DNA from: Agelaius tricolor
Taxonomy: Eukaryota > Chordata > Aves > Passeriformes > Icteridae
Direction of reading: 5' to 3'
Length of the DNA: 64,000 nt
Assembly (NCBI GenBank): GCA_023055355.1
Contig: JALJCS010000015.1
Location: forward strand, 18,775,516 to 18,839,515
The notes beneath the pieces were generated by a model. That model was not told the origin of the DNA. It ran no database searches and saw only the letters and a program-made list of their open reading frames with translations. Of the stretch, positions 19,972 to 61,193 are shown piece after piece (the stretch's first letter is position 1; every line of letters begins with the position of its first letter). The translations under genes and the position numbers were made by a program.

Positions 19972-20086
19972 ATGAAGCTTTGTCAGTCCATCATGGACAT
20001 GGATATGCCTGATTATGTCGACTCCTTGGACTCCTCTTACACCATGCTGGAATTCGACAACCTCCGCGTGCTCCCCAGCAACACCG
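19972..20086 (+). CDS. HNF4B: HNF4B exon 1 (A/B domain, AF-1)
   Basis: It encodes residues 1-38, starting [15 protein letters not shown] and running to LRVLPSNT, with one base of the next codon before the GTGAGG donor. It aligns with exon 1A of HNF4A, which begins similarly around a DMDM core, so this is the P1-type first exon and carries the acidic/aromatic AF-1 activator. The ATG was chosen because this alignment starts exactly there; the sequence before it does not continue the homology. Confidence 0.9.
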
Positions 20087-23000
20087 GTGAGGTTTTTATT
20101 CGTTTTCTCTTGAATAAGCTCCACTAGTTTTTCTGTAAAGCTGGACACAGAGGAAAGGCTGGTGGCAGGTATGGAGCAAAGGGTAGAAGGGGTAATATTT
20201 AAGCAGCTGATCTGTCAACCTCTGTTGCATCCGTGTTGATGTTTGGGTTAAAATGCGACCCCTTCACTTGCCGGTCCCGTTTTGGGTTATTCTTTTAGGT
20301 TATTCTTTTCGTTGGCGGGCTGAGCGTCATGCCTTGAAGAGCCCACCAGGTTTTGCAGGTGTTGGTAGATGTCTTCATGGCATTCCCTGGGTTTATCCTG
20401 CTCTATTGCTCAGGAGGGGAGTTATTACCAATATTTCTCATTCAAATGCGTGTTTCATTCCCATATACGACCTCAGCTGATATTTAATCCTTGGGAAAAC
20501 ATGTCCTCCCAAACGGCATTTGTCCATGACCGTGTGCCTTGTTTAAGTTGGTCCTGGGAACTTGAATTGAGAAACAATATCCAAATCATTGCTAGCTTTG
20601 CATTCCTTTTCTGGCTACCAAGTTGGTCCAACAGTTTTTAGGGCACAAAGGACTTGGCTGGGAGGCGGGAGTGTTTATACGCCGAGACTTCCGCTTGGTT
20701 CATAGGAATAAAGCACTTTGTGTGGGATTCAATTTTTCTGCACTCAGAAGTGCTCTGACATAAAGTGAACTCCATCCTGTGAAATCAACTGCTCGCTGTG
20801 TAAAATTAAAGGGCATTTTGGTCATCTTGCATGAAACCAATCATGCAACTGAATGAGATTCTGGCGTGTAGCAATCCCTTTGGAAAGTTTTGGCAGGCTT
20901 TTAATTTACTAAGAAGCTTAGTGAAATTAAGATGGGATTTTCACATTTGCTCATTAACTGGCTCATCAAAAGAAATCAGAGTTTCAGTCGGGATATCACC
21001 TACAATATAAAATGATTAGACATATTATTGTAGGGCCTGGAGGGAGGTCAGGAGACAAGTAAAGTTAAAAGGCCCAAAGGAACCTGAATTTTAAATTGCC
21101 TTTTGTAAAGCTCTGGCTGTCCGCAAATCAAGGTTTTTCAATATATATAATTTTTGTAAGCTCCAGCTAGACTGGATCTTATTTTTGCAGAAAGCTTTCC
21201 ACCTCCCATCCTACTCCAGAAATGTCATTTAACACAGATGTTTTGCTTTGTCACTTCCCGTTGAACAACAGGATATTTCTCACTTTTTGAAGCGGCACAA
21301 ATTTCCCCAGAATTCAATATAATTTTGTAAACCAACCACCAAAGTCTGTTTGGGCTCTCTGTTGATTCACGCAGTAGAACTGACAGGTTGAGTTTTTTTC
21401 TGAACTTTATCGAACTCGGTGTTGTGTTATTTGTTTAGCTGTTAATGACTAACCAGCTCTCTCGGGAAGTAGCTGCTTTGAAATTAGCTTGTTTGTCTTG
21501 GGTAAGTGTCCTTCTCTACCATTTGTAAAAATAACTTCAAAAAATACATGAAATGGCCATGCATGGAAATCTATTGCTGTCCAGCTGAGTTCCGTCCCCT
21601 GAGGTAATTCAGAATCACAGTTTCCTTGTGGCTTCAGAAATTTTTTAAAATTTTTTAGAATCAAGAAACAACCTCATTTTAGGTACCTTTTATAACTATA
21701 CTGGATTTTTTTTAAGATTTCTTATATCTCTCCTAAGGTTCATCTGTATTTTCCCTACTAGATGATGACAGCTTTGCCCTCTATAAACATGAACAGGAAA
21801 GGATGAAATATTTATTTTGGTGAACTCAGTGCAGTTTCTTATTGTCTGAACAATTCCAAAAGTGAAAATTGGAATATTTTCAAATAAGGTCATGCTTTCT
21901 TGAAACCAACTCTTTCCTTCTTCAGAACATCATTTCATCAGAATTTTGGGTGGAAAAATTTTGTGGAGCACTTCCTGTGCTTAGATGTTCCTTCTTCATG
22001 AAGCTGCTATCATTCTGAGATTTGCCCAGATATGTATTTTGGATTTTCCACCTTCAAATAGCTCATAATTTGCCAAATATTTTAAGATTAATTCAAAATA
22101 AAGAATAGAACACTTTATGGGAGGGATAGATGAAATAAGTACGGTTTAAATAGAAAGAATGGCAACAGGAAAGGAGCAAAAATCACTGCTAATTCTGTCT
22201 TTCCTTCATGAAATATGTGTTGTAGCAGCAGAAATTTTCCCATTCTGTACAAATTTGTTTCCTTCACCTTGGCTGGCAGTACAACCCATATCCTCAGTTT
22301 TTATGTGTGGTTAATGGCCATCCCCTCACACTCCTGTCAGAACTGTCTCATTTTGGTGAAGATGTGAATCATTGCTGCAATGCAGCCCCAATTCTTCCCT
22401 GGAGAGCTGGGGAGCGCTTTCTGCCAGGGTGGTGCTCGCTGTCCTCAGCCCCACACTCCACACTCATCCTTGGGACCCTGGCACGAGGTTGGTGAAATCT
22501 TTCCCAGTTGGACCCAGTTCAGAGCGTGCAAAAACCACCAGAGATGTTTTGGGCAGTGATTTCCCATCCCTCGAGCTTCCAGCGCCTGGAACAGCACCTT
22601 CATCATCGCTCCTCTAGGATTTGGGGTCACTAAATCACAGCTAGGTTTTATATCTCAAAAACTCCTCTATTTGCTGAAAGCTGATGTAGAAAGAGGCTGC
22701 CCTGCACGTGGCCAGGGTTTAAACTCCCTCCTGCCCTACATTTGTGTGTACAGGTTTCACAATGCTGCCTTTGGCACCGAGTTTCCCTGTGTGTGTTCAA
22801 GCCCCAAACCCACATTTGTGATCTCCTCACATTTTAGTCCAGCACATGTAATTTGGGGATTTGTTAACTGCAAATTATGTGCACCAAAACTTGGATTTCC
22901 TGGTAGATAAAGGCCACCCTGGAAAGTATTGCAAGAGAATTCTCTTTTACAATGTGGATCTAGAAGAGCTGTAGCCAGTAAAGGAACTGAAAGGAAAAGC

Positions 23001-60200: not shown

Positions 60201-61193
60201 TTAGTACAAAATCAACCATTTAATCTCTTGAAACCTTGAGGAGTAAAAGTTCTAAGAAATGAGCACTTTCAAGAGTGTAAGAGTGCTCTTGAATCTGCAC
60301 TCTTACACCTACAATGCTTCAAGGTGTGTTCAGTTTAAATCTCCCTTCCCTCTCCAAATATTCAAAGACAAAAATGCAGGAGTCACATGGGACAGTGGTT
60401 TTTCCATTATGCCAAGTGTGCCTGAGGTTTTGCAGCACATCCACCTCTAAAAGTTCTTTCATGTGTCACAAGTGGGAGCATTTCAAGGGATGCAAAAGGA
60501 TGAAGGTACAAATTTTGATTTTGTATAAATCTGATGAAAAAAAAGTAAGAAAAATGAGGACAGAGAAGACTAAACTTTATTAGCTACTTCAGGACCTGGA
60601 GTAATATTTTACTGGGGTTTTTTTTGAGTCTAACACTTTTATAAATTTTATATTGACTGTTCTATGGCTTCATTAATAGAGTAACAGAAGTAGAGGTACC
60701 ATCCTGATGATAAGAACAGGTATCATCCAAACCTTGAGGGGTTTGAATCTAACACAAATATTTTGAATCTAGCATGGGGATTTTGACTCTAGCACTACTT
60801 TTCCCAGCAGGAGAAGACTTCTCCAAACTTCTGTGCAGATGGATGGGACAACCCAATGGCAAGGAACTCTTGGATACTTACTGGATCAGTCAGCATAGTC
60901 CTCAGGTGTGACGACAGAGCCAGCACTGCCAAGCAGTTAAAGAGAACCCCGTTGATCACGGAGTACCAAAAGTCTTTGGAAGGCAGCAACATGACAAAAG
61001 TCACTACAAAGTCTGCATAGACCACCAGGAGCCAGGTCATGATGGCACAGACCATGCCACAGCCATCCCTGATGAACCAGACCCTGTCAGCCATGTCAGC
61101 CTCTGAGGAGGAGGAGGAGGAGTCGTAGCTGTCATTGTCGGCCAGGAGCGGGTGGTGCTCGACATCGCGGAAACGGTGCCCTGATGACTGCAT
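51055..61193 (-). CDS. ZDHHC7: Palmitoyltransferase ZDHHC7 (complete coding sequence, six coding exons)
   Basis: On the - strand, joining 61193-60882, 58395-58271, 53899-53803, 53548-53467, 52370-52240 and 51231-51055 gives 924 bp, 307 residues plus stop; junctions are GT-AG. The human protein has 308 residues. An acidic poly-Ser stretch (25-30) precedes TM1 (about 47-70) and TM2 (76-97). The Cys-rich DHHC domain (about 112-165) carries KCPKCC...HHCSICKRC and the catalytic DHHC with C159. TM3 and TM4 follow at about 176-197 and 212-236, then DETE and a PaCCT-like NPFAGF near the end. The enzyme transfers palmitate to cysteines of substrates such as steroid receptors, G-alpha subunits and SNAP25 at the Golgi, by auto-acylation of the DHHC cysteine. 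It ends EFSV, a possible PDZ ligand. It is tail-to-tail with HNF4B. ZDHHC3 is the close paralogue, but the N-terminus is that of ZDHHC7. Confidence 0.97.
51232..52239 (-). other. ZDHHC7: ZDHHC7 intron between coding exons 5 and 6
   Basis: 1.0 kb of AT-rich sequence. No repeat or other gene was recognised. Confidence 0.85.
52240..52370 (-). CDS. ZDHHC7: ZDHHC7 coding exon 5 (TM4)
   Basis: It encodes residues 206-249: [44 protein letters not shown]. The hydrophobic middle is TM4 and DETE (with the next exon) is the position of the family's TTxE motif. The donor is ACG|GTAAAA. Confidence 0.96.
52371..53466 (-). other. ZDHHC7: ZDHHC7 intron between coding exons 4 and 5
   Basis: 1.1 kb. No repeat or second gene was recognised. 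Confidence 0.85.
53467..53548 (-). CDS. ZDHHC7: ZDHHC7 coding exon 4 (TM3)
   Basis: It encodes residues 179-205 plus one base: [27 protein letters not shown]. It forms most of TM3 and the lumenal loop. The acceptor is TTGTTTGCAG and the donor GTGAGC. The exon is too short to be noticed without its neighbours. Confidence 0.95.
53549..53802 (-). other. ZDHHC7: ZDHHC7 intron between coding exons 3 and 4
   Basis: 254 bp, the shortest intron of the gene. Nothing else is visible in it. Confidence 0.85.
53803..53899 (-). CDS. ZDHHC7: ZDHHC7 coding exon 3 (DHHC catalytic core)
   Basis: It completes S146 and encodes to T178: [32 protein letters not shown]. It contains the DHHC tetrad at 156-159, where C159 is the acyl-accepting catalytic residue, and the zinc-binding cysteines around it. 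The donor is ACG|GTAAGT. Confidence 0.97.
53900..58270 (-). other. ZDHHC7: ZDHHC7 intron between coding exons 2 and 3
   Basis: 4.4 kb. Open frames on both strands exist but none matches a known protein. No recognisable transposon is seen. Confidence 0.8.
58271..58395 (-). CDS. ZDHHC7: ZDHHC7 coding exon 2 (start of Cys-rich domain)
   Basis: It encodes residues 105-145 plus two bases: [41 protein letters not shown]. It supplies the first zinc ligands (KCPKCC, HHC). The acceptor is GATTTCAG and the donor AG|GTATGC. Confidence 0.96.
58396..60881 (-). other. ZDHHC7: ZDHHC7 intron between coding exons 1 and 2
   Basis: 2.5 kb. It holds a 12-bp inverted repeat at 60275-60308 and no recognised transposon or second gene. 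Confidence 0.85.
60275..60308. repeat. 12-bp inverted repeat, 10-nt loop
   Basis: The arms gtgtaagagtgc (60275-60286) and gcactcttacac (60297-60308) are exact reverse complements. The adjacent tcaagag/ctcttga pair could form an alternative hairpin. Confidence 0.9.
60882..61193 (-). CDS. ZDHHC7: ZDHHC7 coding exon 1 (N-terminus, TM1-TM2)
   Basis: 104 codons, from the ATG at 61193 to P104 before GTAAGT. It begins [17 protein letters not shown], with poly-Ser, then [20 protein letters not shown], and TM2 [20 protein letters not shown]. The start is fixed by alignment with the human protein, which begins at the same point. About 17 bp of 5' UTR (61194-61210) precede it in the same exon. Confidence 0.96.

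Follow-up and report, generated by a model that had tools for sequence, protein, structure and literature searches.

A stretch of 64,000 nucleotides from Agelaius tricolor (assembly GCA_023055355.1, contig JALJCS010000015.1, positions 18,775,516 to 18,839,515; hereafter the window) carries an intact nuclear receptor gene that is the avian ortholog of HNF4-beta (HNF4B, NR2A3), placed tail-to-tail with ZDHHC7. In the reading favored here, which we hold with a probability of about 0.9, this gene most likely lies between CRISPLD2 and ZDHHC7, descends from an HNF4 copy that is older than the living jawed vertebrates, and was lost on the way to the placental mammals. The main outcome is a revision of when the gene disappeared: on the present evidence it is the placentals, and not mammals at large, that lack HNF4B, and the presence of a third HNF4 receptor in platypus and marsupials shifts the loss to the placental line.

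A protein search with the 456-residue product of the window gene scored the 7982 candidates sharing most words with it and returned 1981 proteins, of which the best 120 were listed; statements on matches below refer to these 120. Twenty-four of the top 25 matches were named HNF4-beta and the other was an unnamed protein, and identity to the Gymnogyps cluster was 95%. A maximum-likelihood tree was calculated from 43 proteins (22 HNF4-beta, 11 HNF4A and 9 HNF4G sequences from the best 120, and the window protein), without an outgroup. The HNF4-beta, HNF4A and HNF4G groups were each split off from all other rows by a single branch, supported at 100/100, 100/97 and 100/97, respectively, and the window protein was placed among the birds inside the HNF4-beta group. 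Forcing it into HNF4A (p-AU 2.3e-49) or into HNF4G (p-AU 8.4e-61) was rejected by the approximately unbiased (AU) test. At five positions of the alignment all 23 HNF4-beta rows share a residue that occurs there in 0/20 of the HNF4A and HNF4G rows.

Short matches cannot separate the HNF4 paralogs, because the DNA-binding domain (DBD) of the window protein is 95–96% identical to both, and this likeness is what might suggest a diverged or duplicated copy of HNF4A or HNF4G. Such an identity can be given almost no credence, since it is contradicted by the tree, by the AU tests (with the model applied, p-AU below 1e-48) and by the five HNF4-beta-specific residues, and HNF4A and HNF4G are present as separate bird proteins among the matches (P0084, P0080, P0110). 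An earlier note on this DNA, made from its sequence alone, had claimed that the gene is neither HNF4A nor HNF4G, and the phylogeny agrees, the window protein having grouped within neither. HNF4-beta was reportedly first described in Xenopus laevis by Holewa et al. in 1997, and in birds HNF4B is a known gene with existing annotation. For chicken, mallard, turtle and frog, NR2A3 has been reported (PMC4339804). A match from Elgaria, P0041 ('HNF4-gamma-like'), was considered as a tandem second gene and rejected, because its ligand-binding domain (LBD) is that of P0007 and it differs in where it starts and in an insertion ahead of exon 4. P0041 and P0007 are on contigs of equal size, P0041 looks like a variant annotation of HNF4B, and the 'gamma' in its name looks wrong.

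HNF4B protein records were found in cartilaginous fish, lungfish, coelacanth, amphibians, reptiles, birds, platypus and marsupials. The non-placental mammals are represented by platypus (P0022, 480 aa, 81% identity to the window protein), gray short-tailed opossum (P0036, 478 aa, 77% identity, plus the shorter isoform P0100), Tasmanian devil (P0044, 478 aa, 75% identity) and Gracilinanus (P0072, 470 aa, in which part of the LBD is replaced). Three of these four are full-length, and the contigs that carry the four records measure 63 to 761 Mb. In the tree the proteins from platypus, opossum and Tasmanian devil are monophyletic (100/99) and stand beside the sauropsid rows, and a motif of an insert where exons 1 and 2 meet is present in five of the 120 listed matches, all of them from platypus or marsupials; both the grouping and the insert motif argue against contamination as the source of these records. 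Placental HNF4B was not found among the best 120 of the 1981 matches, where the full-length proteins from marsupials reached 788 and 805 bits and the lowest listed match 667. Unnamed transcript matches were considered as possible placental HNF4B and rejected: two of the five unnamed rows are HNF4B-like, and these are nearest to frogs (P0042, 90%) and to lungfish (P0057, 89%).

The earlier note had HNF4B deleted in mammals, which is wrong as stated, given the records from platypus and three marsupials. It is instead very likely that HNF4B is a living mammalian gene, kept in platypus and marsupials and lost only on the placental stem. Retention in birds combined with a deletion from the CRISPLD2-ZDHHC7 interval already in the common mammalian ancestor would agree with a 2025 paper that describes Hnf4-beta as conserved in teleosts, amphibians and birds and absent in mammals (PMC12425335), and with a review that counts two HNF4 genes in mammals (PMC10438950). 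It is contradicted, however, by P0022, P0036, P0044 and P0072, of which all four share the insert motif and the three placed in the tree form a clade, so that a loss this early is very improbable. A published correction, or a paper linking HNF4B with marsupials or platypus, was not found in a literature coverage outside which most subscription papers fall.

The gene itself occupies positions 19972–45493 of the window on the + strand, with ten exons, GT-AG introns and a single open frame of 456 residues:

19972–20086, + strand: coding exon 1, start of the A/B domain, with the ATG at 19972 and an in-frame GT donor
26664–26835, + strand: exon 2, first zinc finger with the P-box CDGCKG
28719–28813, + strand: exon 3, second zinc finger
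36928–37034, + strand: exon 4, hinge, with a 10-residue motif match (E 0.004)
38027–38182, + strand: exon 5, LBD
38821–38908, + strand: exon 6, LBD
39805–39957, + strand: exon 7, LBD
41708–41944, + strand: exon 8, LBD with the activation function 2 (AF-2) helix LLQEMLL
44170–44283, + strand: exon 9, F domain, read from open frames
45360–45493, + strand: exon 10, F domain with the stop codon TGA, read from open frames

Exons were searched for by matching four HNF4 motifs to the window. Exons 2, 3, 5, 6, 7 and 8 matched with E values from 5e-9 to 1e-34, and the exon matches exceed chance. Exons 1, 9 and 10 lie outside these motifs and were located via the reading frames, and the product of exon 1 aligns with the N-terminal residues of ten compared HNF4B proteins. 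Pfam detected a zf-C4 domain (3.6e-30) and a nuclear-receptor LBD (Hormone_recep, 7.2e-43) in the predicted protein, the P-box CDGCKG, which is characteristic of the HNF4 family (NR2A), is at residue 76, and the AF-2 helix is at residue 367. The closest solved structure is that of HNF4A (4iqr, 1.1e-174), while the best match to RXR reached only 5.8e-80. The protein ends in PKQEI (45478–45493), one residue short of all ten aligned HNF4B proteins, whose final leucine it lacks.

The neighboring ZDHHC7 gene is complete and lies on the minus strand from 61193 to 51055, with six coding exons that have canonical borders and encode 307 aa:

60882–61193, minus strand: coding exon 1, with the ATG at 61193
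58271–58395, minus strand: coding exon 2
53803–53899, minus strand: coding exon 3, DHHC motif
53467–53548, minus strand: coding exon 4
52240–52370, minus strand: coding exon 5
51055–51231, minus strand: coding exon 6 and stop codon

The product is 90% identical over 308 aligned columns to human ZDHHC7 and has a Pfam DHHC domain (5.5e-36). The two genes converge, with the HNF4B stop at 45493 and the ZDHHC7 stop at 51055, leaving 5.6 kb between the stops. The earlier note had thus described the local arrangement accurately: the gene is a complete HNF4-family member of 456 residues in ten canonical exons and one frame, it is tail-to-tail with ZDHHC7, and the limits that had been set, 19972 and 61193, are exactly the ATG codons of the HNF4 gene and of the minus-strand ZDHHC7.

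Several repeats lie in and around HNF4B. A minisatellite (36310–36909) with a 26/52-bp period, in which the 26-bp unit occurs 24 times, stops 18 bases short of exon 4, near the splice acceptor of that exon, and long AT-rich arrays of five-base units are found in intron 8 (42020–42771) and some 300 bases ahead of exon 2 (26148–26358). A 300-bp tandem duplication with 93% matches in intron 3 (33159–33752) falls within long open frames of 352 and 312 aa, one on each strand. The frame of this duplicated unit is probably not coding, judging by the lack of a Pfam match to the + strand frame. Upstream of HNF4B, a 389-bp unit is present in 1.9 tandem copies with 86% matches (9619–10358). Ten open frames of the window (107–352 aa; nine anonymous and one corresponding to the first exon of ZDHHC7) gave no Pfam match at E 0.01, and a Rfam scan of the window gave no match at gathering scores.

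CRISPLD2 exons were not detected in the 64-kb window by tblastn with human CRISPLD2, the only match being of 14 residues (E 0.86). This fits the map of chicken chromosome 11, where an association signal is reported between CRISPLD2 (about 16.37–16.40 Mb) and HNF4beta (start at about 16.46 Mb) (PMC8424881), leaving about 60 kb from the end of CRISPLD2 to HNF4beta, compared with the 20 kb upstream of the gene in the window; the adjacency of the two genes in chicken is, by this map, already published. For other species a proxy of linkage was used, in which contigs of identical size in one species were taken, by inference, to be one contig. Ten of the 11 species found in both protein listings have CRISPLD2 and HNF4B on a contig of the same size (Liasis, Rhinatrema, Discoglossus, Hymenochirus, Ambystoma, Carcharodon, Ascaphus, Stegostoma, Protopterus and Phyllobates), and the locus numbers are consecutive in Ascaphus (FKM82_003662/003663) and Hymenochirus (GDO86_008301/008300). 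The corresponding control pairings were HNF4B with CRISPLD1 (0/9), HNF4A with CRISPLD1 (0/4), HNF4A with CRISPLD2 (0/4) and HNF4G with CRISPLD2 (0/1). HNF4B adjoining ZDHHC7 was seen in this window alone, and the gene most likely still occupies the position it had ancestrally, flanked by CRISPLD2 and ZDHHC7.

A second pairing of the same kind is found between CRISPLD1 and HNF4G, which are on contigs of the same size in two of three species: the shark Mustelus and the gecko Eublepharis. The exception is Nanorana, with contigs of about 0.6 Mb. In human, HNF4A adjoins R3HDML, a relative of PI15, JPH2, R3HDML and HNF4A are together on 20q13, JPH3 and ZFHX3 are on 16q, and JPH and ZFHX genes mark the HNF4 blocks. 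A gene row of ZFHX4, HNF4G, CRISPLD1, PI15 and JPH1 has been given for pig (PMC10741191), and a human copy-number study lists CRISPLD1, GDAP1, HNF4G, JPH1 and PI15 for human 8q21.11, and CRISPLD2 and ZDHHC7, with no HNF4, for human 16q24.1 (PMC4346930). CRISPLD2 as the neighbor of HNF4B and an ancestral CRISPLD-HNF4 pair had both been put forward in the earlier note; the first holds in other vertebrates as neighbor or contig mate (ten of 11 species and the chicken map), and the second is well supported by the two pairings together.

Cartilaginous fish as a group have HNF4A, HNF4B and HNF4G as well as both CRISPLD-HNF4 pairs (the pairs coming from different shark species), so the duplication predates the living jawed vertebrates. 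Most simply, the three genes would be the surviving copies of a CRISPLD-linked HNF4 that was multiplied in the early vertebrate genome duplications. The pairs could alternatively have arisen by a segmental duplication before the jawed vertebrates, and the present data show just the two kinds of pair, in sharks (different species) and in tetrapods. This origin appears unlikely, given that the pairs are on different contigs and that other genes of paired families are nearby in pig (PMC10741191).

Against the reading that combines a genome-duplication origin, a place beside CRISPLD2 and a loss toward placentals, a number of points have to be set. The tree of 43 proteins is unrooted, and its lungfish HNF4-beta row was flagged as a long branch. 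In Engystomops (one of the 11 species), CRISPLD2 and HNF4B are on contigs of different size, probably because they come from two assemblies, the CRISPLD2 row having a GDO81 locus tag and the HNF4B row a predicted-isoform name; and Ascaphus has a second CRISPLD2 row on a contig of another size. A genome duplication and a large segmental duplication of the same age both fit the linkage data. The gap in the LBD of the Gracilinanus protein may reflect annotation or decay. The absence from placentals rests on the best 120 of 1981 matches and the evidence for it is good but not complete, as an incomplete copy in a placental might have escaped notice: at 674 bits, the shortened isoform from opossum came near the lowest listed 667. 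HNF4B of ray-finned fish was likewise not found among these 120, and hnf4b has been reported in zebrafish and grass carp (PMC10450339, PMC12425335); the fish gene may have diverged more.

Members of the HNF4 family are orphan nuclear receptors that act as homodimers on HNF4-type response elements. By homology, the two zinc fingers of the window protein would bind HNF4 elements as a homodimer, and its LBD, with an intact AF-2, would recruit coactivators. Frog HNF4-beta is reported to have sites in common with HNF4-alpha and to activate more weakly (PMC10438950), and in zebrafish hnf4a and hnf4b redundantly control yolk-lipid genes, the double mutants not being viable (PMC10450339). From this work the most likely role of bird HNF4B would be one partly redundant with HNF4A at lipid and yolk-nutrient genes, and we infer its role in birds and marsupials on this basis. 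The avian gene might also be redundant or decaying, in line with the normal development of zebrafish hnf4b single mutants (PMC12425335) and the missing final leucine, but decay is at odds with the intact frame, splice sites and domains, and with the identity to Gymnogyps in the LBD (222/226), DBD (76/77) and F domain (69/81), where the greater conservation of the LBD and DBD is as expected if these domains are under purifying selection. Redundancy or decay is quite improbable.

HNF4 acts as a master switch in the liver, and among human genes HNF4A is of major importance for diabetes and for the liver. Marsupials would be mammals with three HNF4 genes, and what placentals lost with the third becomes directly testable in them. 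If the late loss is true and the yolk-lipid role seen in fish holds in amniotes, the disappearance of HNF4B may mark the point at which the feeding of the embryo finally passed from yolk and yolk sac to the chorioallantoic placenta, although this nutritional link is a guess.

Compared with the known members of the family, the window protein is closest to HNF4-beta; with the Xenopus laevis protein it shares the clade, the domain order and 78% full-length identity, the differences being those of ordinary ortholog divergence, apart from an end that comes one residue earlier. HNF4A (NR2A1) is alike in the DBD (74/77 residues identical between stork HNF4A and the window protein) and LBD (177/226) and forms a separate clade, with only 24/57 identical residues in the A/B region and 26/81 in the F domain of the stork protein. 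Because of the near-identical DBD and the presence of the P-box, the choice of DNA sites should match that of HNF4A, whereas the low identity of the A/B and F regions implies that N- and C-terminal regulation should differ. HNF4G (NR2A2), compared through the Cinclus protein, is similarly alike in the DBD (73/77) and LBD (170/226) and is also linked to a CRISPLD gene, but it too forms a separate clade, and its partner is CRISPLD1.

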